From: a virus
DNA: 23,647 nt
Direction: 5' to 3' (one strand)
IMG/VR virus record: IMGVR_UViG_3300026488_000052
Coordinates: 1-23,647 of that record
The translations under genes and the position numbers were made by a program. Shown piece by piece: positions 1 to 14,633 of this stretch. How positions within the stretch are numbered: position 1 is the first letter of the stretch; each line of letters opens with the position of its first letter. The notes below the pieces were generated by a model. It was not told the DNA's origin. It searched no databases and saw only the letters and a list, made by a program, of their open reading frames with translations.

Positions 1-2
1 AT

Positions 3-350
3 TGTCTTATTCCTACTTCAGGTAAAAATGATTCGCTTTACGAAAGCTCAGGGGATATTTATTCAGATTTGATTAATCTAGCAGTAAAATGGCAAGTTCC
101 AATTTTGACTTTTTCACAACCAGTTAGGGATGCTTGGAATAAACCTGACAAAGGCGAAGTAATAGAACCTCATGATCTTGCTCATTCAGCAAGGAAAGCC
201 CATAGAAGTTGGTCTATCTCCAGTTTAAATTTCAAAACAGGAGCAGTTGAAGGGTATTTTTATTTAGGGTTTAATAGACGTGGGAAATCAGGTATAAGAA
301 TACCTCTTAAAAGGAATTTAGAAACTATGTATATTGGAGAAATTCAATAA
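3..350 (+). CDS. DnaB/RecA-like ATPase, C-terminal fragment (5' end outside window)
   Basis: The frame is open from base 3, so this is the 3' end of a gene that begins left of the window; the internal TTG at 69 has no reason to be the start. The visible 115 residues resemble the C-terminal half of a hexameric RecA-fold motor such as DnaB. The segment VPILTFSQPVR matches the 'hydrophobic strand, then S/T-Q' sensor of this fold. HDLAHSARKAHRSWSISSLN matches the following helix and strand, where DnaB-like proteins ask whether the system is nucleotide-loaded. GFNRRGKSG matches the basic R-x-G loop near the end. A replicative helicase or loader would fit immediately upstream of a DNA polymerase. 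The Walker A and B motifs lie outside the window, so a RadA- or UvsX-like recombinase cannot be excluded. The gene ends 2 bp before the P1 palindromes. Confidence 0.55.
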   Translation, partial: CLIPTSGKNDSLYESSGDIYSDLINLAVKWQVPILTFSQPVRDAWNKPDKGEVIEPHDLAHSARKAHRSWSISSLNFKTGAVEGYFYLGFNRRGKSGIRIPLKRNLETMYIGEIQ

Positions 351-351
351 G

Positions 352-394
352 TTTTTCTAAAATACTTGATATTTTTTGGAAAATATGTTATATT
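352..394 (+). promoter_or_regulatory. Promoter P1 with degenerate palindromic operator boxes
   Basis: TTGATA at 366-371 and TATATT at 389-394 are separated by 17 bp, a near-consensus sigma-70-type promoter. A-T-rich boxes at 352-363 and 373-384 lie 21 bp apart and are degraded copies of the TTTTCNGAAAA palindrome seen cleanly at P2 and P3. The second box fills the -35/-10 spacer. It is positioned to transcribe the genes from 430 to 3745. Confidence 0.75.
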
Positions 395-429
395 TAACTA
401 AAAATAAAAGTAAATTAAGGAGGAGAATA

Positions 430-657
430 ATGGAGATAAATGTTTTCAACAATAAGGTTCAAATACTATTAGATCAACCTGTAGGGTTACTTTTATTTGA
501 AGATGAAAAATTTAATTCTTTGTTAAACAAGATTTTTATAAGTTATAACGCCACATTTTCTGATTTTGAGTTACTGATAACAGACTTTGAAACTTCCAAT
601 ATTGAAAAAGCAATTGAAGCTATTTTAGATTTTATGGAAAAGGAGGAAATAGTATGA
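430..657 (+). CDS. Small hypothetical protein, first gene of the P1 operon
   Basis: 75 residues, acidic and rich in Phe/Ile/Leu; I do not recognise a family. The start was placed at the ATG at 430 because it has a strong Shine-Dalgarno (AAGGAGGAG, about 417-425). A longer frame opening at 376 would start inside promoter P1 and is rejected. The C-terminal part (IEKAIEAILDFMEKEE) is predicted helical; there are no cysteines and no membrane segment. The stop overlaps the next start by four bases (ATGA at 654-657), so the two are translationally coupled. Its place directly ahead of the polymerase suggests an early replication-related accessory, which is inference from position only. Confidence 0.7.
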   Translation: MEINVFNNKVQILLDQPVGLLLFEDEKFNSLLNKIFISYNATFSDFELLITDFETSNIEKAIEAILDFMEKEEIV

Positions 658-905
658 AAGTTCAATGTTGCGACTTCGTAAGATCGACTTTAGTAAGAGT
701 GGCACAAAAATTCAAAATGAAAAACTTATTAAAGAAAATTCAAGACGACCAAGTTGACATTGAAGCAAAGTTAGGAAGGATACGAATTAGTGAGCTATGG
801 ATACCTATCGAGTTTGAAACTCAAGTATGGTATGTCTATCTGGATGGAAACAGAATTTTAATTCAACCTGAAAATAGAAACTATCATTTGGAGGTGAAGT
901 TGTAA
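654..905 (+). CDS. Small hypothetical protein
   Basis: 83 residues, basic in the first half (segment STLVRVAQKFKMKNLLKKI) and beta-like in the second half (WYVYLDGNRILIQPE). No family recognised. Its ATG overlaps the stop of the previous gene, and AAAGGAGGAAA lies just upstream inside that gene. A one-base gap separates its stop from the next ATG at 907. Tight coupling on both sides supports real translation. The basic N-terminal half could contact nucleic acid, but nothing in the sequence proves it. Confidence 0.7.
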   Translation: MKVQCCDFVRSTLVRVAQKFKMKNLLKKIQDDQVDIEAKLGRIRISELWIPIEFETQVWYVYLDGNRILIQPENRNYHLEVKL

Positions 906-906
906 T

Positions 907-1065
907 ATGATTTGTAAAAGATGTGGAAGTCAGATGGCAGAATTCAAAGAAAAACAAGGAATGTCATTTATATGTCCTATTTGTAGAAAAGTTGAATTTG
1001 TAGAGTTTTATAATCTTTCAAAAAGAGGTAGAAAGAATGAAAGAAAAGGTACCAGAAAGATGTAA
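907..1065 (+). CDS. Mini zinc-ribbon protein overlapping the polymerase gene
   Basis: A 52-residue frame, MICKRCGSQMAEF and onward, with two CxxC knuckles: C3-x2-C6 and C23-x2-C26. This is the classical four-cysteine zinc ribbon with a 16-residue connector, followed by a strongly basic tail (KRGRKNERKGTRK). The start ATG at 907 follows the previous stop by one base and has GGAGGTGAAG upstream at about 891-900. The 3' end overlaps the polymerase start at 1037 by 29 bases in another frame. Such mini-ribbons occur in phages and often bind DNA, RNA polymerase or another protein. The exact role is unknown; the intact CxxC pairs and the coupling make it likely to be a real gene. Confidence 0.65.
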   Translation: MICKRCGSQMAEFKEKQGMSFICPICRKVEFVEFYNLSKRGRKNERKGTRKM

Positions 1066-3745
1066 ATTATGTGGTCTCTATAAACAATGCAAAACTCATT
1101 TTGTTAAACCAAGAGGAAATTTTAAAAACCCTAAAATGATACTGCTAGGTGAATCCCCTGGAAGAAGGGAAGATAAACAAGGAAAACCTTTTGTGGGTAG
1201 GTCAGGAAAATTATTAGAAGAAGTATTCAAGTATTTCAATAAGAACTTAGAAGAAGTTTGCTACATAACTAATGTAGTTAAATGTTGTCCCTATGCAGAC
1301 CCTTTCAATCCTAATAGAGGAGTTAGAACTCCAACTGACAGAGAAATTGAATGTTGTCTTCCTTTTCTACTTGAAGAACTTAAACAATTTGAAAGTAAAG
1401 ATGTTATTATAATGCCTTTAGGTAATACTGCTTTAAAAGGATTAGGTATAAAAGGAAAGATTACAGATTTAGTAGGTAAAGAACTAGAGTGGAAAGGGTT
1501 TAAAGTTATTCCTAATTTTCACCCAGCAGCAGTTTTAAGGAACCCTAAGTGGAAACAAAAATTCATATCAGTATTTGGTAAAGTACTAGATAGTAGACAA
1601 GTAGAGTGGGAAAATCTCATCAAACCACTTTTTAATGAAGATGCAATAAAACTACTTGAGAAGAAACTTGAAGAAAAACCTGAATGGTTTTGTTTTGATA
1701 TCGAGACAAATGGACTTGACCCATTTCACAACGATATCATTATGCTTACATTTTCATTTCCAAACGACCCATATGGTTATGTAATTCCACTTTACATTAA
1801 AGACCCACTTCCAGGAGATAAATACGAAAAAATAGATATCGTGGTAAATCAACTTCATAAGCAAAAGATTTTAAAACTCACAAAGCAACTTCTAGAGACA
1901 ATTCCAGTAATAGGTCATAACATCAAATTTGACTTGAAATTTATGGTAACTAAAACAGGGTTAGATTTGTCTAAAGTTAAAGTAAAAGATGATACTCTGT
2001 TTTTAGCTCATTTTGTATTTAACAAAACTCAAGTTGGAGAAACTCTTCAACTTAAAGATATAGCTGTTAAAGTATTAGGTTTAGATGGTAGATGGGATGA
2101 AGAAGTTAAAGAATATTTAAAGTCCAGATATAGACTTAAAAAAGACAGACACTACGGAAACATTCCAACTTCACTTCTTATTAAATATGCAGGATTTGAT
2201 ATTCTTTTCACTAAAGAGATTTATCTTCACTTATCGGAAAAAGTAAAAACATTTCATTGTGACGAAATTAGAGAGGCTCTCAATAAAGCTACAATTCTTT
2301 TTGCTGAAGCTGAACTTAAAGGTGTGAAAATAGATTTAGAAATGAAAAAGTTTTTAAATGAAAAGTATCAAGAAGAAATAGAGAAAGCTGAGAAAGAATT
2401 ACAAGAACTTCCAAAAATAAAAGAATGGAAACAAAAGAAGAAGATAGATTGGTTTAATCCTTCATCTCAAATTCATCAAAAAGAAATAGCATTCAATGTA
2501 TATAAACTTCCAGTTGTAGATAAAACTCAAAAAGGTCAACCTTCCTTGTCAAAGAAAGCTATTAACTGGTATTTGTCAAATCTTCCTGAAGACTCAGAAG
2601 AACGAAAATTTATGGAACTTTTTCATAAAATTAAACTTTTTAAGAAACTCAAATCAACTTATATAGACGGATTTACAGGTCAAATTGATGAAAAAGGATT
2701 TTATCATCCTGAATTCAATATCGCGGGAACTATCACGGGTCGTATGAGTTCAGGATATCATACTATCGCTTCAAAATCAGATATAAAAAGAATGTTTGTT
2801 AGTAGGTGGAAAAGTGAAGGCGGAATTATTGCAAGTTTTGATTATTCTCAACTGGAGGTTAGGGTAGCAGCAAGTCTTGCTAATGAAACTAAACTTATAG
2901 AAGCATATAAAACAGGAATTGATGTTCATAAAAGAACTGCTTCTCTAATTTTTGGAAAACCGATGGAAGAAATAACTAAGCAAGAAAGAAAAGCAGCTAA
3001 AACTGTAGTGTTTGGACTTTTGTATGGTAAAACAGCAAAATCACTTGCAGAAGATTTTAATATCACGATTGAGGAAGCTGAAAAATGGATTGAAAACTTA
3101 TATGGAGGATATACAAACCTTAAAAAATGGATAGAAAAGCAACATAAATTTGTCCTTGAAAACGGATTTGTGATAACAGCTTTTAACAGAGTTATTCCAG
3201 TTCCTCAAGCATTTGAACCAGATAAATTCAAAAAAGAAGAAGCAAAAAGACGAGCTGTAAATTATCCAGTTCAATCATCAGCCTCAGACCTTACAACAAC
3301 AAGCGTAGTTCGTTTATATGAAGCAATGAAAAGACTTAATTTAAAGTCAGTTATTCTTGGAACCGTTCATGATGCGATTGTGATAGATGTTTACCCAGGA
3401 GAACTTATTGATATATACAATCTAGTAGTTAAATGTGCTGAGATTATTCCTATGAAAAAATATGATTGGCTTACTTGTCCTATCAGAATTGATGGAACAC
3501 TTGGAATAAACTGGAAAGGAATTGAGTTTGACAGAATTAAACTTCATCCAGATGAAATCATTTTAGAAGGAACTGGATTTAAAAATGACTTAGAAGACCT
3601 CAAAAAGGTTTTAGAAAAAGCATACAGCATTGATGTTGAAAAACTTGATGAAGAAAAAGTTGATGAATCTGAACTTGGAATTGATCAGTTTGTATATTCG
3701 GATACTAAGGAAACTTGGAAGATTAAAATAAAAAGAAAAGGTTAA
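1037..3745 (+). CDS. Uracil-DNA glycosylase / 3'-5' exonuclease / family A DNA polymerase fusion
   Basis: 902 residues in three modules. (1) Residues 1-185 form a family-4/5-type uracil-DNA glycosylase. GESPGRREDKQGKPFVG (38-54) is the uracil-pocket motif and HPAAVLRNP (162-170) is motif 2. Cysteines C9, C12, and the pairs at 83/84 and 106/107 fit the four Fe-S cluster ligands of this family. (2) Residues 215-400 form a DnaQ-like proofreading exonuclease: DIETNG (221-226), HNIKFDL (294-300, D299) and YAGFD (384-388). (3) Residues 415-830 form PolA: TGRMSS (567-572), motif A FDYSQLEVR (601-609, D602), O-helix RKAAKTVVFGLLYG (651-664) and motif C VHDA (777-780, D779). All catalytic residues seem intact. 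The O-helix carries Phe where E. coli Pol I has F762, and there is no 5' nuclease domain. An acidic tail follows residue 835. It is the likely phage replicative polymerase, with a fused domain that could detect or remove uracil. The start is supported by AGAGGT upstream. Confidence 0.93.
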   Translation: MKEKVPERCKLCGLYKQCKTHFVKPRGNFKNPKMILLGESPGRREDKQGKPFVGRSGKLLEEVFKYFNKNLEEVCYITNVVKCCPYADPFNPNRGVRTPTDREIECCLPFLLEELKQFESKDVIIMPLGNTALKGLGIKGKITDLVGKELEWKGFKVIPNFHPAAVLRNPKWKQKFISVFGKVLDSRQVEWENLIKPLFNEDAIKLLEKKLEEKPEWFCFDIETNGLDPFHNDIIMLTFSFPNDPYGYVIPLYIKDPLPGDKYEKIDIVVNQLHKQKILKLTKQLLETIPVIGHNIKFDLKFMVTKTGLDLSKVKVKDDTLFLAHFVFNKTQVGETLQLKDIAVKVLGLDGRWDEEVKEYLKSRYRLKKDRHYGNIPTSLLIKYAGFDILFTKEIYLHLSEKVKTFHCDEIREALNKATILFAEAELKGVKIDLEMKKFLNEKYQEEIEKAEKELQELPKIKEWKQKKKIDWFNPSSQIHQKEIAFNVYKLPVVDKTQKGQPSLSKKAINWYLSNLPEDSEERKFMELFHKIKLFKKLKSTYIDGFTGQIDEKGFYHPEFNIAGTITGRMSSGYHTIASKSDIKRMFVSRWKSEGGIIASFDYSQLEVRVAASLANETKLIEAYKTGIDVHKRTASLIFGKPMEEITKQERKAAKTVVFGLLYGKTAKSLAEDFNITIEEAEKWIENLYGGYTNLKKWIEKQHKFVLENGFVITAFNRVIPVPQAFEPDKFKKEEAKRRAVNYPVQSSASDLTTTSVVRLYEAMKRLNLKSVILGTVHDAIVIDVYPGELIDIYNLVVKCAEIIPMKKYDWLTCPIRIDGTLGINWKGIEFDRIKLHPDEIILEGTGFKNDLEDLKKVLEKAYSIDVEKLDEEKVDESELGIDQFVYSDTKETWKIKIKRKG

Positions 3746-3823: not shown

Positions 3824-4597
3824 ATGGTTGTTCTTGAGGTCAAAGGTGAGATAAAAAGCGATTACCGAATTATTTCTATTAAATTCTCTCCTAACTTCAA
3901 AAAGTCCTTTTCAGTTCTAAAATCAGTATGTAATGAATTTGTTAATGAAATTAAAAAATGTAAGTCAATTGAAGAAATAAGAATAAAACTAAATGAATAT
4001 GGACTTGAGTTAAATGAGAAGGAATACTTGGCAATTAAATTGGATGTACTAATTTGCTCAATTTTGAAATACCCGTTTAACGAGGATATTTATCAAGAAC
4101 TGTTTTTAAAGGGATGGCAAATCTTGAAACAATCATCCATTCAAAACCTTCCAGAACATAAGAAATGGGCTTATGTTCATAGATCGCTTTTAAACAAATA
4201 TTATGATATCTGTAAAGTTTGCAAACAAAGACAAATTGAAACTTTTAATGAATTTACTGAATTAGACTCAAATATTTTGTCATCAAATCTTAATCCAGAA
4301 GAGTTCACAATTATTCAAGATTTAATCGAAAAGATCAAAAAATGGGTTGAAATACAACAAGATGAAGATACAAAAATTTTCTTTAAAGAATACTTCAATC
4401 CATCTAAGGAAGTATTAGAACATATATCGATGCAAGCCTCAAAAAGAACCTGGAAAAACAGAGATTTTTCACCTTTGTATCTTGCAAAAATATTAACTGA
4501 ACTTGGAAAGTGGAAATATAAAGATCCACGAGACAAGTGGCTTAAGATAAGAAAAAAGTTAAGAAAATATCTTTTAAATTTAGATAAGGAGGTTTAA
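3824..4597 (+). CDS. Divergent sigma-70-like (ECF-type) protein
   Basis: 257 residues. Residues 86-142 read like sigma region 2: NEDIYQELFLKGWQIL matches the usual 'DLvQetFlraW' helix, and HKKWAYVHRSLLNKYYDI followed by KVCKQRQIE matches the 'wLyrIarNlaiDylRkrkr' -10-binding helix. The C-terminal stretch (about 215-250, FSPLYLAKILTELGKW, then DKWLKIRKKLRKYL) has the shape of a region-4 helix-turn-helix ending in a basic helix. The N-terminal 80 residues match nothing I recognise. The start has GAGGAGGGT upstream and is the first gene after promoter P2; it is 1 bp from the SbcD gene. If real, it could redirect host RNA polymerase, for example to the late leftward genes. The similarity is from pattern reading only; another helical DNA-binding protein remains possible. 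Confidence 0.45.
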   Translation: MVVLEVKGEIKSDYRIISIKFSPNFKKSFSVLKSVCNEFVNEIKKCKSIEEIRIKLNEYGLELNEKEYLAIKLDVLICSILKYPFNEDIYQELFLKGWQILKQSSIQNLPEHKKWAYVHRSLLNKYYDICKVCKQRQIETFNEFTELDSNILSSNLNPEEFTIIQDLIEKIKKWVEIQQDEDTKIFFKEYFNPSKEVLEHISMQASKRTWKNRDFSPLYLAKILTELGKWKYKDPRDKWLKIRKKLRKYLLNLDKEV

Positions 4598-4598
4598 A

Positions 4599-5561
4599 AT
4601 GAAAATTCTTTATTACTCTGACATTCATTTTAGGGAAAAAGGGTCATTTATTCCTTGGAACAGACAAGAGAATCGCTTCACAAATGAGTTAAATCGTATC
4701 TTAAATTCAATGTACTGGTTATCAGAGATTGTAGAGGTTGAAAAACCTGATTTATTACTTTGCTTAGGAGATATATTCAACAATTTGGTAATCCAATCAT
4801 CCCCTACACTTGATGCTTCTGGTTTAGCGTTTTCTCAGCTAAAGGAAACCTGCAAAAGGTTAGGTATAGAGCATTGGCTTATCCCTGGAAATCACGACTA
4901 CTATGGCAGATATAACAACGCTATCTATTCTATCAGAGTACTAGAAGGATTTTTTGACAGAATTTTCTATGAGCCTGTTTATGAGGATAACATTTTATAT
5001 TTACCTTACTTTACAGATGAAGCTAAAGCTTACGAAGAAATTTTATTAAGAGAACCTAAGAAAGTTATAACTCATTTAACTTTTAATGGAGCTGATGTAG
5101 GTAAGGTTAAAGTGCAAGGATTAAAACCACCAAGAGACGTGAAAGTAATTTCAGGACATATTCATATTCCTCAAAAAATTGGAAATGCTTTATATGTAGG
5201 AAGCTTAGTTCAATTAAGCTGGATAGAAGGAACTAAACATGGGGTTTATATTGAGGAAAATGGGAAATTTAAATTCATTCAAAATCCTGTTGGAAAGCAA
5301 ATCGTCAAGATAAAAAGGTTAGATGAAATTGATAAGTACGACATAAAAAATACTGGTTTTATTTTAGAAACATTCCAACCTCCAGAAAAACTTCCAGTTG
5401 GAGTTGATATTCAAGTTAAGCTTGTTAAAGAAGAACAAAAAGAAGAAAGAATTGAATATGAATTTGAAAGCTTTCAATCACCACTAGAGCTTCTAAAACA
5501 AGAAGTAAAAGAAGTGTTTCCAGATAAAGTTAAGAAGCTAGAGACTCTATTAAAAGAGTGA
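4599..5561 (+). CDS. sbcD: SbcD/Mre11-like metallophosphoesterase (phage gp47-type nuclease subunit)
   Basis: 320 residues with the full calcineurin-like phosphoesterase set: D8-x-H10 (YSDIH), GD57-58 (CLGDIF), GNHD (97-100), H159 (ITHLTF) and GHIH (186-189), all residues that bind the two metal ions. This order and length fit the SbcD/Mre11 nuclease that pairs with an SbcC/Rad50 ATPase, which is encoded at 6150-7757. After residue 210 comes the small C-terminal capping region. The complex would process DNA ends and hairpins for phage recombination-dependent replication. AAGGAGGT precedes the ATG. Unusually, a lytic-transglycosylase-like gene separates it from its partner. Confidence 0.88.
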   Translation: MKILYYSDIHFREKGSFIPWNRQENRFTNELNRILNSMYWLSEIVEVEKPDLLLCLGDIFNNLVIQSSPTLDASGLAFSQLKETCKRLGIEHWLIPGNHDYYGRYNNAIYSIRVLEGFFDRIFYEPVYEDNILYLPYFTDEAKAYEEILLREPKKVITHLTFNGADVGKVKVQGLKPPRDVKVISGHIHIPQKIGNALYVGSLVQLSWIEGTKHGVYIEENGKFKFIQNPVGKQIVKIKRLDEIDKYDIKNTGFILETFQPPEKLPVGVDIQVKLVKEEQKEERIEYEFESFQSPLELLKQEVKEVFPDKVKKLETLLKE

Positions 5562-6131: not shown

Positions 6132-6149
6132 TAATAGGAGGGAGTGAAA

Positions 6150-7757
6150 ATGATAGAATTTCAAAAGCTTCATATCGAAAATTTCCAATCTATTAAAGAA
6201 GTTAAGCTCAATTTAAACACTAGAAAAGTTTATTGCGTAGTAGGTCCTAATGGAAGTGGGAAAAGCTCATTATTTGAAGCGTTAATTTGGATACTATACG
6301 GGAAAGCTCGTTCTAGTAATTTTATTAGATTTGGTTCAAATTATTGCAAAGGTTTAGTAGAACTTAATTTAAATGGAAGACAAATCACAATTACTAGATA
6401 CAAAAATCATCCAGTTTATAATTCGTCGGTTAAAATTACAATTGATGGAAAAGATTTAGTGCTTCATACAATCAGAGAAGCGAATAGAAAGATAGAAGAA
6501 CTTATAGGAAGTCCTGAGCTTTTTCAATCTTGTGTTATTCTCACGCAAGGACTTCCGTATGATTTTACTTCCCTCACTCCTACTACTAGAAAGGTAATCT
6601 TTGAAGAGCTTATTGGAATAGCATATTGGGATAAGTGGAAGGAAAAACTTCAAAAGAAACTCAAAGAATTACAAACTGAACTTAACAGAATTTTACTTGA
6701 AATGCAAAATCTTGAGAAAAAGCAAAGTAATTTACAAGGAAAACTTGAAGAACTTGAAAATCAAACTGGACTTAGTTCAGTAAAGGAGGAACTTCAGGAA
6801 ACAGAAAAAGCAAAACAAATACTTGAAAACGAACTTTCAAATCTTCCTGATATAAATTTAAAAAGTATCCAAGACAAGCTCAATAGAGTTATCAAGAAAC
6901 TTTCACTACTTGAAAAAGAATACAAAGATAAAATTTCAATACTTAACTCTGGAATTTGTCCAACTTGTAAACAACCTTATCCTGAGAATTTAATCAATCA
7001 AGTTAAAGAACGTCTCAAAGTTATTAAGGAAGGAATTATTCAACTTAAAAATCTCAAAAAACAGTTAGAGTCTCAAAGAGAGATAGCACTCAAAAAACAA
7101 AATTTACTTGCAAAATATGAAATTCTTACGAAACGAATCAAAGCTTTACAAAATGCACTGACTGAATCACAAACAAATATTAAAGAAAAAATTGAAAACA
7201 TAACAAAAGAACTTGAATTAATTCAAAGCGAACTTGAAACTTTACAAAACAAACAAAACGAACTTGAATCCGATATTGAATTTATTAATTATGTTATAGA
7301 CCTTCTCAAACCTTCTTCCAGATTTAGAACTAATTTACTTAACAGATATGTGGAAGCTCTCAATACCATCTTAACAGAATTTCCAATTGAATTTGAGATT
7401 AGATTTAAGCTAGGAAAGGGATTAGATTTAGAGATTAAAAAGGGAGGAAGAATACTTGATTTGAAAAGTTTATCTGGAGGGGAAAGGAGAAAGGTTAGCA
7501 TTGTGATACTTTTAGCTTTACAACAACTGATGGAAAGAATAGGAGGAATTAGAACTAACCTTTTAGTAGTAGATGAAATCTTTGATGCATTAGATTTAGA
7601 AAATCTTCAGTTTGCTGTTGAGCTTTTTGCAGGATTTGAAGGAGAAAAATCAGTTTTTATCATAACTCATAACGAAATGCTTAAAGAAATGATTAACAAT
7701 GTTATTGAAGTAAGAAAAAATGAGGAAGGAGTATCTGAATATTCAAATTTATCTTGA
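6150..7757 (+). CDS. sbcC: SbcC/Rad50-like ATPase (phage gp46-type)
   Basis: 535 residues from the ATG at 6150, whose AGGAGG (6136-6141) is 8 bp away; the GTG at 6144 is too close. Walker A GPNGSGKSS (32-40) and the Q-loop region (CVILTQGLPYDF) are followed by long coiled coils. The zinc-hook CPTC (270-273) sits in the middle, then returning coils, ABC signature LSGGERRK (441-448), Walker B LLVVDE (471-476) and D-loop FDALD. It is far shorter than bacterial SbcC (about 1000 residues) and close to phage T4 gp46. It should dimerise through the hook and form, with the SbcD-like protein, an ATP-controlled nuclease for DNA ends. The stop TGA at 7755-7757 lies inside the Shine-Dalgarno of the next gene. 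Confidence 0.9.
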   Translation: MIEFQKLHIENFQSIKEVKLNLNTRKVYCVVGPNGSGKSSLFEALIWILYGKARSSNFIRFGSNYCKGLVELNLNGRQITITRYKNHPVYNSSVKITIDGKDLVLHTIREANRKIEELIGSPELFQSCVILTQGLPYDFTSLTPTTRKVIFEELIGIAYWDKWKEKLQKKLKELQTELNRILLEMQNLEKKQSNLQGKLEELENQTGLSSVKEELQETEKAKQILENELSNLPDINLKSIQDKLNRVIKKLSLLEKEYKDKISILNSGICPTCKQPYPENLINQVKERLKVIKEGIIQLKNLKKQLESQREIALKKQNLLAKYEILTKRIKALQNALTESQTNIKEKIENITKELELIQSELETLQNKQNELESDIEFINYVIDLLKPSSRFRTNLLNRYVEALNTILTEFPIEFEIRFKLGKGLDLEIKKGGRILDLKSLSGGERRKVSIVILLALQQLMERIGGIRTNLLVVDEIFDALDLENLQFAVELFAGFEGEKSVFIITHNEMLKEMINNVIEVRKNEEGVSEYSNLS

Positions 7758-8223: not shown

Positions 8224-8745
8224 ATGAAAAAGGCAATGATTGAATATATAAAAAATCCTAAAATTGATGAAATATATACTCCTAAATATGCTGTAAAGCC
8301 GTTATTACCATATCTAAAAAAATTTAAAGATAAAATTTTTTGGGAATGCACTGATTTTGGTAATAGTAATATAACTAAAGTATTAAAAGAAAATGGATTT
8401 AAAGTAGTATCTACACATATTAATAATGGTTTTGATTTTTTAAAAGATGAACCTAATTTTAACTTTGATATTATAATTACAAATCCACCTTACAGCTTAA
8501 AAGATAAATTTTTAGAAAGGGCATACAATTTAGGAAAACCTTTTTGTTTCTTATTACCAATTACAACCTTAGAAGGTGTAAAAAGAGGAAGATTATTTAG
8601 AAAATATGGAATTGAAGTTTTAGTGTTAGATAAAAGAATAAATTTTATGAAAAATAAAAAGAATGTTTGGTTTAATACAAGCTGGTTTTGTTGGAAAGTT
8701 TTGCCAGAAAAACTAATTTTTGCCGAAGTAAAATGGGAGGCGTAA
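8224..8745 (+). CDS. NPPY-type N6-adenine DNA methyltransferase-like protein
   Basis: 173 residues. NPPY at 87-90 is the catalytic motif IV of N6-adenine (or N4-cytosine) methyltransferases. WECTDFGNSNI (40-50) takes the place of the SAM-binding motif I and is not the usual 'xxGxG' form. The hydrophobic strand FDIIIT before NPPY and the later RLFRKYGIEVLVLDKRINF resemble phage adenine methylase-like proteins of about this size, in which the recognition domain is absent or supplied elsewhere. AAAGGAGAG lies upstream of the ATG. It stands alone without a restriction enzyme gene nearby, so it may be an anti-restriction or orphan methylase. Because motif I is weak, another SAM-dependent substrate is possible. 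Confidence 0.6.
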   Translation: MKKAMIEYIKNPKIDEIYTPKYAVKPLLPYLKKFKDKIFWECTDFGNSNITKVLKENGFKVVSTHINNGFDFLKDEPNFNFDIIITNPPYSLKDKFLERAYNLGKPFCFLLPITTLEGVKRGRLFRKYGIEVLVLDKRINFMKNKKNVWFNTSWFCWKVLPEKLIFAEVKWEA

Positions 8746-8747
8746 AA

Positions 8748-9125
8748 ATGTGCTGGAAAGATATCTTCCCTAAGGAAAATCGTTATTTTGAAACTGAGAA
8801 TGGTATTCTCTATTGCTGTGATTGCTTAGAAGTTTTAAAGAAATTTCCTGAAGAGAGTGTAGACTTGGTTTTAACTGACCCTCCTTATGGAGTGAGAAAA
8901 AAGAAGTATAATCATCCTACAACTAAACCATTAGGATTAATGGAAGATTTAATTTATTTTTATTCTAATAGAGGTGACTTAGTTTTAGACCCTTTTATAG
9001 GTTCAGGAACTACCTTAGTAGCTTGTGAAAAACTGAATAGAAGATGGATAGGAATAGAAATAAATCCTGATTATTGTGAAATTGCAAAAAGAAGAATACT
9101 TGCTTTAAAAGATGAGAAAAAATGA
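8748..9125 (+). CDS. Beta-class DNA methyltransferase with internal deletion
   Basis: 125 residues from the ATG at 8748, with GGGAGG upstream; the earlier frame start at 8688 lies inside the previous gene. Both ends of a beta-class (motif IV first) methyltransferase are clear: SVDLVLTDPPYG (38-48) and HPTTKP, then DPFIGSGTTLVACEKLNRRWIGIE-type motifs X-I-II (56-104). Complete enzymes have roughly 100 or more residues between DPPYG and HPTxKP, containing motifs V-VIII and the target-recognition domain. Here only seven residues (VRKKKYN) remain. The frame is preserved, so the deletion is clean. Without recognition and binding loops it is probably inactive alone. The stop overlaps an ATG (9122) that starts the right direct repeat frame. 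Confidence 0.7.
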   Translation: MCWKDIFPKENRYFETENGILYCCDCLEVLKKFPEESVDLVLTDPPYGVRKKKYNHPTTKPLGLMEDLIYFYSNRGDLVLDPFIGSGTTLVACEKLNRRWIGIEINPDYCEIAKRRILALKDEKK

Positions 9126-10712: not shown

Positions 10713-11171
10713 ATGCCATTAATTCTCGGAAGAATAGAAAATCAGTATGAAGAAGAGATAGTAAGCCAACAATACTATCTCGAAGGAGACTCTTGGTACT
10801 ACGAGTATATAAACTGTTATTCCAGCTCAGAGTTAGGGTTAGGTTCGTGTAGATGCGTATCACATGACCCTATTAGAACAGTAAAAGTATCAAGAGAGGC
10901 GGTACTAGAAGCTATAAAGGAAAATCCTACAGCTGTGCAGGAGCTAACGGAGGTAGAGTGGAAGGACTTAGAAGAATACAAAAAGAACAAGGAATATGAG
11001 CTAAGGTGTAAATTTCTGGAGAAGTTGAATATGGAGCCTGAGGAGTTTAAAAGCTATATTGTGATGCTAAGAGATAGATTATGCTTTAGTGATGAGGATA
11101 TAAAGAAAATGCTAAAGAAAGTACCTGAGTTTGCAAGAAAGTATATCGAGAAGGAATTAAACTTGTACTAA
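10713..11171 (+). CDS. Hypothetical protein, tandem paralogue A (CYSS..LGLGSC family)
   Basis: 152 residues, the same length as the next gene and clearly its paralogue. Both begin MPLI, share ENQY, then CYSS, LGLGSC, CVSHDPI (about 35-54), then VSRE-VLE-I-ENP and LTE-EWKDLE-Y-KNKEY. The conserved Cys/His cluster (C35, C46, C48, H51 region) could bind a metal or be redox active. The C-terminal third is charged and helical (EEFKSY, DEDIKKMLKKVPEFARKY). GGGAGGTG precedes the ATG. I do not recognise a family, and the pair has no membrane segment. Its place at the end of an early operon suggests a host-takeover role, which is inference. Confidence 0.72.
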   Translation: MPLILGRIENQYEEEIVSQQYYLEGDSWYYEYINCYSSSELGLGSCRCVSHDPIRTVKVSREAVLEAIKENPTAVQELTEVEWKDLEEYKKNKEYELRCKFLEKLNMEPEEFKSYIVMLRDRLCFSDEDIKKMLKKVPEFARKYIEKELNLY

Positions 11172-11209
11172 GCCTAATTCTATTATAAACCACCGTTAGG
11201 AGGAGTGAA

Positions 11210-11668
11210 ATGCCTCTTATATTTGACGAAATAGAAAATCAGTATGGAGAGATAATACCTGAGCAACTCTACCTAGAAAATGGTAAATGGTACTGTGAAA
11301 AAGTTAACTGCTACTCAAGTGAGTTGCTAGGTCTTGGGAGTTGTCAATGCGTAAGCCATGACCCTATTGATAAATTTGAAGTATCAAGAGAATTTGTATT
11401 AGAAATGATACAAGAAAATCCAGTAGCTATAAAAGAACTAACGGAGCAAGAATGGAAAGATTTAGAAAACTATAGGAAGAATAAGGAGTATAGATTAAAA
11501 TGCATATGCAGAGAACTTTATGATCTAGAACCTGAAGAATTCAAAGAAAAGTTGCTTGAGTTCAAAGAAAGATTTAATTTGAGCAACGAAGAGTTAAGAA
11601 AACTCCTCGAAGAGGAAATACCAAAAATAGTTAAAGAGTATCTAAAGGATGAACTAAATCTAGAGTAA
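11210..11668 (+). CDS. Hypothetical protein, tandem paralogue B (CYSS..LGLGSC family)
   Basis: 152 residues, paralogous to the previous gene over its whole length. It keeps ENQYGE, CYSSE, LGLGSCQCVSHDPI, VSREFVLE and LTEQEWKDLENYRKNKEY. The C-terminal part diverges most (PEEFKEKLLEFKERFNLSNEELRKLLEEE), as expected for a recognition or partner-binding end under change. GTTAGGAGGAG precedes the ATG, and 38 bp separate it from paralogue A. Its TAA (11666-11668) lies within the base of the convergent hairpin. Function unknown. Confidence 0.72.
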   Translation: MPLIFDEIENQYGEIIPEQLYLENGKWYCEKVNCYSSELLGLGSCQCVSHDPIDKFEVSREFVLEMIQENPVAIKELTEQEWKDLENYRKNKEYRLKCICRELYDLEPEEFKEKLLEFKERFNLSNEELRKLLEEEIPKIVKEYLKDELNLE

Positions 11669-12170: not shown

Positions 12171-12470
12171 TCAACCATTGCTATAAGTATCTCCAGAACA
12201 AGTTGCTATTACTCCATTGAAGCATCCTACTAGAGCATCACCACATCTAGCAGTTCCTCTTTCGTTAGTGATAACATCTCCAGAGCAAGTCACCACTACG
12301 CCTATATGTCCACAAGGAGTAATTCCTATATCAGCACACCTGACTGTACCTCTACTATTAGTGATAACGTCTCCTGAGAATGTAACTAGAATTGCTATTG
12401 TAGGTATGGGAATTGGATGACATATGCAAACTCCAACAGCTATATCCCCAAATCTAGCATGACCTGGCAT
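12171..12470 (-). CDS. PAAR-motif tail spike tip protein
   Basis: 99 residues with the PAAR layout: PGHARFGD at 2-9 (canonical PAAR-x-GD) and two near-copies of a strand unit, SGDVITNSRGTVRCAD (32-47) and SGDVITNERGTARCGD (63-78). A third partial copy is SGDTYSNG (92-99). His and Cys residues (H4, C15, C17, H18, C45, C53, C62, C76) could hold the structural metal at the point. PAAR proteins sharpen phage and type VI spike complexes that puncture the cell envelope. The start overlaps the stop of the preceding gene by one base. The position near the end of the tail operon fits a distal tail component. Confidence 0.75.
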   Translation of the reverse strand: MPGHARFGDIAVGVCICHPIPIPTIAILVTFSGDVITNSRGTVRCADIGITPCGHIGVVVTCSGDVITNERGTARCGDALVGCFNGVIATCSGDTYSNG

Positions 12471-13590: not shown

Positions 13591-14115
13591 TTACCTCAGT
13601 TTCAGATAGTAGTAATACTTGATTTTGGTAACGTAATTTATAGTCTCTCTAGGTAGACTAAGGTCATAAATATACTTAGATTTAGTCTTTCTATATGATT
13701 TGTACACTCTGCCTGGACCTGCATTGTAGCTTGCAAAGATGAAGTCAAGTAAGCTGAGATACTCAATACTGGATTTCCGTCTCCAGAATCTTTCTAACCA
13801 CTTATCATACCTTATTCCAGTAGCTATGGCTGTGCAAGGTATGTAGAGTTTATTTGGATCTACTCCTAACCACCTAGCCGTAGACGACATTATTTGCATA
13901 AGTCCAATAGCTCCTACTTTTGACTTAGCTTTAGGATTAAGTGAGCTTTCAGCTATAGCTTGAGCTTTGAACCATCTCCAGTCAAGATAAGGAAAGTAGA
14001 TGTGAGAGTAAACTATGAAATACTTATCATATTTCTTAGTTATTCCAAACGCTACTGAAAGTAAGATTAAAGCAGAAAGTTTGATATTGCGTAGATAAGT
14101 CCTAACGCTATGCAT
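13591..14115 (-). CDS. Lytic transglycosylase / endolysin (SLT family)
   Basis: 174 residues. IAESSLNPKAKSKVGAIGLMQIM (54-76) is the canonical SLT motif, with E56 the catalytic acid; FASYNAGPGRV is the second motif and INYVTKIKYYY the third. Residues 10-25 (NIKLSALILLSVAFGI) form a signal peptide or signal-anchor, so export could occur through the host Sec system. The ATG at 14115 has GGGGTGATA upstream and overlaps the previous gene by 49 bp. It should cut the glycan strands with formation of anhydro-muramic ends. It lies just after the DUF350-like membrane protein, a plausible holin, and after the spanin-like pair. Confidence 0.85.
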   Translation of the reverse strand: MHSVRTYLRNIKLSALILLSVAFGITKKYDKYFIVYSHIYFPYLDWRWFKAQAIAESSLNPKAKSKVGAIGLMQIMSSTARWLGVDPNKLYIPCTAIATGIRYDKWLERFWRRKSSIEYLSLLDFIFASYNAGPGRVYKSYRKTKSKYIYDLSLPRETINYVTKIKYYYYLKLR

Positions 14116-14318
14116 CCTATTATCACCCCTGCATAGATAGCCACAGCTGTGTTTCCTTTCTTAATTTCACTATGAATAAACTCAAACTCGTCCTTAAATA
14201 CTACTCCTAAAGCTAACCTTACAAAGAAAACTACTATGATAGCAACAAATATAATACCTACAAGTCCAAGAGACTTTGAAATGAGAATGAGTTCTAAGTC
14301 GTCTTTGCTAAGTATCAT
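14067..14318 (-). CDS. DUF350-like two-membrane-segment protein, candidate holin
   Basis: 83 residues with two membrane segments: 17-40 (LGLVGIIFVAIIVVFFV and following) and 57-80 (TAVAIYAGVIIGCIALGLIYAI). The linking FEFIHSEIKKGNTAVAIYAGVIIG resembles the DUF350 repeat ('...eGNvAaA...GallG'). In DUF350 proteins this unit is repeated; here there is one, so it would need to assemble. The size, two segments and place directly before the endolysin also fit a holin. Both readings are compatible. The stop lies inside the endolysin gene. Confidence 0.5.
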   Translation of the reverse strand: MILSKDDLELILISKSLGLVGIIFVAIIVVFFVRLALGVVFKDEFEFIHSEIKKGNTAVAIYAGVIIGCIALGLIYAISNFLL

Positions 14319-14327
14319 AACCTCCTC

Positions 14328-14633
14328 CTATTTCAGAATTAAGTATAGTAAGACTATTCCCAGTAGTGCTGAGATTACAATAAAATTCAAGTACTTACTT
14401 GACATATCTTGCCTCAGTTTTAAAATATCACTTTGAAGTCTTGCTAGCTTATCGTTTATATCTCTTATCTTTCTAACAAGAATCTCATTATGAGTAGCAC
14501 ACTCTTTATTTAGCTTATGTTCTAAGTAATGAATACGCTCTTCAAGATGAACTAATCTTTCTTCTAAAGAGTGCATCTTTTCAAACATCGCGTCGTAGTC
14601 TTCTTTGGTGATAAAATAACTATTTCGTTTCAT
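14328..14633 (-). CDS. Coiled-coil protein with C-terminal membrane anchor
   Basis: 101 residues. About residues 12-80 are a long heptad coiled coil (MFEKMHSLEERLVHLEERI and DINDKLARLQSDILKLRQD). It ends in one membrane segment (about 84-100, FIVISALLGIVLLYLIL) at the very C-terminus, so it is tail-anchored. Similar small coiled-coil membrane proteins occur in phage lysis regions as holin-like or antiholin factors (hemolysin XhlA-type). XhlA has the same N-coil, C-terminal-TM architecture, so this is my best comparison. It overlaps the o-spanin-like gene by 14 bp. Confidence 0.55.
   Translation of the reverse strand: MKRNSYFITKEDYDAMFEKMHSLEERLVHLEERIHYLEHKLNKECATHNEILVRKIRDINDKLARLQSDILKLRQDMSSKYLNFIVISALLGIVLLYLILK

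Follow-up and report, generated by a model that had tools for sequence, protein, structure and literature searches.

A phage replication gene was found to encode, in one chain of 902 residues, a uracil-DNA glycosylase (UDG), a 3'-5' exonuclease and a family A DNA polymerase. The gene (positions 1037 to 3745, plus strand) lies on the IMG/VR virus contig IMGVR_UViG_3300026488_000052, a fragment of a phage genome that was analyzed over its full 23,647 bases and is referred to below as the window. The UDG domain is of the family 4 type, with a complete-looking uracil pocket and iron-sulfur cluster, and is predicted from these residues to be catalytically competent. The reading that we favor, with a probability of about 0.6, is that the protein would serve as a replicase and, at the replication fork or close to it, excise uracil, within a uracil-exclusion system.

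Architecture of the polymerase gene

1024..1029, plus strand: Shine-Dalgarno-like AGAGGT, 7 nt 5' of the ATG (read from the sequence)
1037..3745, plus strand: UDG, 3'-5' exonuclease and family A DNA polymerase, 902 residues (open reading frame (ORF), Pfam, AlphaFold2, structural matches to Klenow and Bst polymerase)

The ORF starts with ATG and contains no internal stop codons. Pfam recognizes UDG at residues 27-174 (E 8.5e-28; 97.6 bits against a cut-off of 24.3), DNA_pol_A_exo1 at residues 200-403 (E 5e-10) and DNA_pol_A at residues 447-827 (E 1.5e-74), the latter two also above their cut-offs. A common phage DNA polymerase family, PHROG_17, gives one match from residue 16 to residue 831 (E 1.3e-133), and since this match is unbroken, the UDG part is included in the PHROG_17 profile. 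The AlphaFold2 model of the 902-residue chain reached a predicted local distance difference test (pLDDT) of 89.9 and a predicted template modeling score (pTM) of 0.81. Five IMG/VR relatives with 76-79% identity share the architecture, two of them with an extra intein, which argues that the single gene is real. The protein therefore has its three domains in one chain, as do the UDG-exonuclease-PolA phage polymerases of the SPO1 gp31/PaBG kind. An earlier note on this DNA had read the motifs of an Fe-S family-4-type UDG, an exonuclease and PolA in a single chain, and Pfam, alignment, AlphaFold2 and the relatives all agree with it. Promoter and terminator signals scanned for at the polymerase gene did not rise above those of shuffled sequences.

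A family-4-type UDG domain with an intact pocket

1037..1594, plus strand: family-4-type Fe-S UDG domain, approximately residues 1-186 (structural matches to 1ui0, 4zbx and UdgX 6ajo)
1061..1072, plus strand: CxxC (C9, C12), first pair of [4Fe-4S] ligands (aligned with Tth C13/C16)
1148..1192, plus strand: UDG motif 1, GESPGRREDKQGKPF, with E39, E45 and F52 (aligned with Tth E41, E47 and F54)
1262..1288, plus strand: UDG motif 2, YITNVVKCC, with N79 and the cluster ligand C83 (aligned with Tth N80/C84)
1355..1357, plus strand: C107, fourth cluster ligand (aligned with Tth C100)
1514..1540, plus strand: UDG motif 3, NFHPAAVLR, with H162 (aligned with Tth H155)

Alignment with the Thermus thermophilus enzyme TthUDGA revealed that all four cluster cysteines (C9, C12, C83 and C107) and all five pocket residues are kept, with E41, E47, F54, N80 and H155 of TthUDGA corresponding to E39, E45, F52, N79 and H162; the ligand and pocket roles of the TthUDGA residues are those that we take its structure to assign. 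The following sequence features of family 4 are thus present: a CxxC and two further cysteines as [4Fe-4S] ligands, a motif 1 of the form GE(A/G)PG..ED with its Glu residues and stacking Phe (one Ser standing for Ala/Gly), and the uracil-contacting Asn of motif 2 (N79) and His of motif 3 (H162). The closest solved relatives of the N-terminal domain all belong to family 4, namely those from Thermus (1ui0, 3e-26), Thermotoga (1l9g/1vk2, 1e-25) and Sulfolobus (4zbx, 1e-21). When modeled alone, the domain gave a pLDDT of 94.0 and a pTM of 0.90, and a structure search with this model placed 1ui0 first (Z 22.4 over 172 residues, 2.3 Å), followed by 4zbx (Z 22.1) and UdgX (6ajo; Z 21.8), and then, after a gap, by the family 5 enzyme 2d3y (17.6), the phiLo polymerase 9QHS (16.4) and MUG/TDG (about 12.8). 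The fold is therefore closest to solved family 4 enzymes, in a tie with UdgX.

Between C83 and C107 the domain has a longer loop than TthUDGA, at the region of the UdgX KRRIH loop (R-loop). Covalent trapping of the UdgX kind was considered and rejected: the stretch C83-R97 contains no His, and hence no equivalent of His109, and motif 1 reads GESPG, not GEQPG. The NCBIfam UdgX model scores 76.5 bits against a cut-off of 190, which places the domain outside UdgX, and the lack of a His in the C83-C107 loop implies that UdgX covalent chemistry is not to be expected.

For the UDG domain, the ratio of nonsynonymous to synonymous substitution rates (dN/dS) lies at 0.10-0.16 when the window is compared with its relatives and at 0.07-0.08 among the relatives, similar to that of the polymerase domain; such low values indicate purifying selection on a domain that is not decaying. 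The earlier note had named the loss of catalytic or cluster residues on alignment as one result that would speak against its reading; all were found in place, in a domain with dN/dS of 0.07-0.16.

Exonuclease, polymerase and C-terminal extension

1694..1708, plus strand: exonuclease motif I, FDIET (D221, E223), invariant in 32 fused proteins
1916..1942, plus strand: exonuclease motif II, HNIKFDLKF (D299), from the consensus of fused proteins
2186..2200, plus strand: exonuclease motif III, YAGFD (Y384, D388), D388 invariant
2834..2863, plus strand: polymerase motif A, SFDYSQLEVR (D602), D602 invariant
2987..3028, plus strand: polymerase motif B, RKAAKTVVFGLLYG (R651, K655), both residues invariant
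3362..3391, plus strand: polymerase motif C, TVHDAIVIDV (H778, D779), nearly invariant

The presence of the exonuclease acidic residues and of Pol A motifs A, B and C identifies the remainder of the chain as a proofreading family A DNA polymerase. The full model matches Bst and Klenow polymerase (Z 33-35, 560-580 residues) over a span from residue 188 to 831, so that the UDG occupies the place of the Pol I 5' nuclease. In the relatives, the 5'-3' exonuclease is a separate upstream gene, with DnaB in between. Residues 832-902 form an extra, fast-changing extension, with dN/dS of 0.3-0.4, where the other domains have 0.06-0.16 (window versus relatives).

dUTPases and other uracil-related genes

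Six relatives were tested for a dUTPase, and five have one; the sixth contig starts too near the gene to include the upstream region. Four of the five (G001, G002, G004 and G005) encode the dimeric dUTPase_2. The other, L065, covers the upstream part of a phage almost identical to that of the window (98.35% over window positions 1-1153) and encodes a trimeric dUTPase. Within one lineage, two unrelated dUTPases, trimeric PF00692 (L065:1-474) and dimeric PF08761 (L005:6210-6908), thus appear to fill the same role, which suggests that uracil exclusion matters to these phages. A hydroxymethyluracil phage was considered as well and rejected, since a search of five relatives for PF00303 (thymidylate synthase/dUMP-hydroxymethylase) gave no match.

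An intein site within UDG motif 1

1162..1163, plus strand: empty intein site between G42 and R43 (the intein starts here in L065, L004 and L005)

Two relatives (L004 and L005) carry a 342-residue intein directly after the GEAPG of UDG motif 1, followed by Ser (GEAPG^S), with Pfam Intein_splicing and HNH_3 matches and the NCBIfam intein N- and C-terminal regions. The same intein begins at the same point in L065, whose contig ends inside it, and the window represents the empty allele. Motif and intein searches recovered the same intein family, 45-50% identical and at the same motif 1 point, in L194, L197, L198 and L199, and in L197 another intein sits at the cysteines of motif 2. Inteins tend to persist at sites from which they cannot be lost imprecisely, and their recurrence at motif 1 would indirectly support the importance of this UDG loop. 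No description of an intein site in UDG motif 1 was found in the literature searched, which was covered in part. Relatives of the motif 1 intein also occur in other genes (L201-L206). The polymerase genes of L003 and L005 are mosaic, with synonymous divergence (dS) of 0.06 in the polymerase parts and 0.6-0.7 in the UDG and exonuclease parts, which suggests recombination or intein-linked conversion.

Live and dead UDG domains in fused polymerases

The pocket was scored at five residues in 46 fused proteins, a set biased toward intact motifs, and a domain with at least two of them changed was called dead. The pocket residues are kept in 30 of the 46, window lineage included. In nine named phages (SPO1, phi18, SBSphiC, LysYB1, Serbin, STP12, Almagne, P744 and Colly_1) the pocket is lost and the fused domain retained. 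Judged by these residues, the window lineage keeps a live-looking pocket that the SPO1-like and the YuA-like (Serbin/STP12/Almagne/P744) phages have lost. On the polymerase tree, where the window lineage adjoins Colly_1, the dead state corresponds to five changes, four of them forced by well supported branches. A thymidylate synthase/dUMP-hydroxymethylase match accompanies all 11 dead-domain records, against 8 of the 35 others. An independent-pairs test of this association gave a median p of 0.5, with too few pairs, and the tracking of dead pockets with these genes is a lead that relatedness and sampling bias limit.

UDG fusions to two polymerase families

The window's domain was used to retrieve 80 viral UDG loci, among which 41 are PolA fusions and 13 are ORFs of UDG-exonuclease length, several with a separate polymerase ORF adjoining. 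In another three, the UDG forms the N-terminal part of a DNA polymerase III alpha (L058:4405-8508, L066:4456-8475 and L071:4456-8475). These proportions are biased because the scan was seeded with fused proteins; the existence of both fusion types is unaffected. Chimeric assembly is an unlikely source, as L066 and L071 come from different samples and share the architecture, and L058 comes from a third. At the C-terminus of Pol III alpha, the UDG was found in L198:169-4446 and L199:1144-4458. L058 and L066 have an intact pocket, as does L199 by reading; in L198 a Tyr replaces the stacking Phe. No PolA fusion was present among the best 80 cellular UDG hits of a genome search. The UDG is thus joined to two unrelated polymerase families, and the fusion arose at least twice; the N- and C-terminal Pol III alpha fusions are probably separate events because the UDG is placed differently, which would make three origins in all. 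UDG-Pol III alpha fusions were not found described in the literature searched, again with partial coverage.

Uracil excision by the replicase and its alternatives

In the favored reading, the gene product would be the phage replicative polymerase, a Klenow-like exonuclease-polymerase in which a catalytically competent family 4 UDG replaces the 5' nuclease. Uracil exclusion would begin with a dUTPase that lowers dUTP; the polymerase-borne UDG would then flip out and excise residual uracil, stemming from dUMP incorporation or cytosine deamination, near the fork or during gap filling. The abasic site may be opened by a host apurinic/apyrimidinic (AP) endonuclease and the gap refilled by the same polymerase. 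That the UDG is active and coupled to synthesis is what we infer from the sequences, as are the strand on which it acts and the later repair steps. The proposal of the earlier note that the fusion could couple uracil checking with synthesis gains support from the dUTPases of the relatives and from the Pol III alpha fusions.

Several observations weigh against uracil excision by the replicase. Ser40 of motif 1 replaces the Ala or Gly found in most relatives, and the NCBIfam family 4 model TIGR00758 (UDG_fam4), although the best-scoring NCBIfam model for the domain (tied with NF040953), gives 115.7 bits for the domain alone, slightly below its cut-off of 125.3. If uracil were excised from a single-stranded template immediately in front of the polymerase, a blocking abasic site would result. 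The window, itself a fragment, contains no dUTPase, and PF01261 and PF03372, which were looked for as phage AP endonucleases, were not found in seven records, some incomplete, which would leave the abasic site to the host; absences of this kind are soft because of the incomplete records. Finally, dead fused domains have been retained, which implies that the domain is useful without catalysis too.

This last point makes a clamp resembling poxvirus D4 a serious second function. That the fused UDG is mainly a DNA-binding and processivity module, as D4 is in the E9/A20/D4 holoenzyme, with glycosylase activity secondary, is the chief rival reading, though rather unlikely in our estimate. D4 sets the precedent for such a role of a UDG on a replicase (PMC1936997), and the pocketless domains kept on PolA from SPO1 to Colly_1, with the repeated changes to the dead state on the tree, fit it well, but a pure clamp needs no pocket, and the pocket is kept in the window lineage and in most of the fused proteins scored. 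The earlier note had also suggested a scanner that stalls rather than cuts. Binding of uracil that halts synthesis, in the manner of archaeal family B read-ahead or of UdgX trapping, could draw on the longer C83-C107 loop at the R-loop region and on a fold equally close to UdgX; we judge it improbable, since the UdgX hallmarks (the KRRIH loop with His109, and GEQPG) are absent and the excision residues E39, E45, N79 and H162 are all kept. Least of all do we expect the domain to be carried along neutrally from an old fusion and to serve no purpose in this phage today: fusions are indeed widespread and several have lost the pocket, but purifying selection here is as strong as on the polymerase, an intein has been retained at the pocket loop, and dUTPase partners are at hand.

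Beyond the window, it is possible, and put forward here tentatively, that phages repeatedly and independently fused a live family 4 UDG to their replicase (at the Pol A N-terminus and at the N- and C-terminus of Pol III alpha), that fork-coupled excision is a general strategy of which the window enzyme would be a live example, and that modified-thymine lineages lost the pocket and kept the clamp.

Heat and significance

The earlier note had proposed that heat favors such a fusion. The fraction of the residues I, V, Y, W, R, E and L (IVYWREL) is 0.424-0.445 in the window and its relatives and 0.385-0.419 in all comparison phages, and the usual formula converts the former into growth at 60-80 °C. 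The error of this formula is large: a phage of the thermophile Moorella scores 46 °C and phages of mesophiles score up to 58 °C, which leaves a thermophilic host of the window phage a weak inference from composition. This hint lends the proposal weak support, and fusions are also present in phages of mesophiles.

Whether a glycosylase can work within a replicase rather than behind it is a mechanistic question, as cutting at the fork risks abasic blocks. The window lineage offers an intact, possibly thermostable test protein, with dead-pocket relatives as natural controls and an unrelated polymerase family (Pol III alpha) bearing the same UDG as further material for comparison. The site in the pocket loop to which the intein homes would be useful for tracing how selfish elements use essential active sites. 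Proofreading archaeal polymerases stall on uracil-containing DNA in the polymerase chain reaction (PCR), and the enzyme, if active, would be relevant to PCR on such DNA.

Neighboring genes

3..350, plus strand: DnaB-like helicase, truncated at the window edge to its C-terminal part (PHROG_19; the full L005 relative matches Pfam DnaB_C)
4599..5561, plus strand: SbcD-like nuclease subunit, same replication block (Pfam Metallophos, PHROG_100)
6144..7757, plus strand: SbcC-like ATPase subunit, same replication block (Pfam SMC_N/AAA_23, PHROG_77)

Immediately after the polymerase lies a 257-residue ORF (3824-4597) matched only weakly by a PHROG of unknown function; its L005 counterpart (13806-14456) has 216 residues and is alike in the C-terminal part. 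Methyltransferase ORFs occupy 8224-8745 and 8688-9125, and the N6_N4_Mtase copy of the window has 145 residues against 257 in L005 (17533-18306), apparently through internal shortening. A tandem pair of paralogous genes (10713-11171 and 11210-11668) is without a Pfam match. At about position 11,200 the sign of the GC skew flips, at the junction of the plus-strand replication block and the minus-strand structural block. A short glycine-rich repeat protein at 12171-12470 (minus strand) resembles a PAAR spike tip by eye and has no Pfam match at 0.001.

Comparison with known systems

The UDG-exonuclease-polymerase architecture has been published for the 11 jumbo phages of the group that includes PaBG (PMC7412058). 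DNA polymerase I gp205 of the PaBG-type ('Lupandier') phages has the three domains in one chain, as in the window, and their 5'-3' exonuclease is a separate gene, as in the window's relatives (PMC7412058). The UDG of PaBG gp205 is a homology model on 1ui0, and the paper reports no activity (PMC7412058); these phages differ from the window in forming a distant jumbo-phage lineage. SPO1 gp31 and SPO1-like polymerases share the domain order, and it is to gp31 that the label 'Phage SPO1 DNA polymerase-related protein' on family 4/UdgX enzymes refers. However, the pocket and cluster of gp31 are degenerate (F54M, N80S, cluster Cys lost), and SPO1 has a dUMP hydroxymethylase neighbor and an intron instead of an intein. 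The phiLo family A polymerase 9QHS (released 2026-03-25) provides a solved structure of a UDG-like and family A chain, whose UDG keeps motif 1 GEAPG..E, F, N and H; it is unlike the window protein in its length of 1142 residues and its identity of about 26%, and its cluster is doubtful because the N-terminal CxxC falls outside the aligned part. Beyond the lineage of the window, the fused polymerase closest to it on the tree is that of Maribacter phage Colly_1 (Molycolviridae), which is also the top match among predicted viral structures and is likewise adjoined by SbcCD-type genes, but its UDG pocket and cluster are wholly degenerate.

TthUDGA, which shares all cluster and pocket residues with the window's domain, stands alone, whereas the latter is fused and has the longer C83-C107 loop. 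Vaccinia D4/E9/A20 also holds a UDG on a viral replicase, as an analogy and not a relative: D4 is family 1-like and a separate subunit, and the polymerase is of family B. The archaeal read-ahead polymerases with their N-terminal uracil pocket are likewise of family B, and the family A polymerase of the window does not belong with them. The earlier note had presented the fusion as unusual; it is instead a published and common phage architecture, already known from PaBG, SPO1 and phiLo, of which the window protein is a new, live-looking example.

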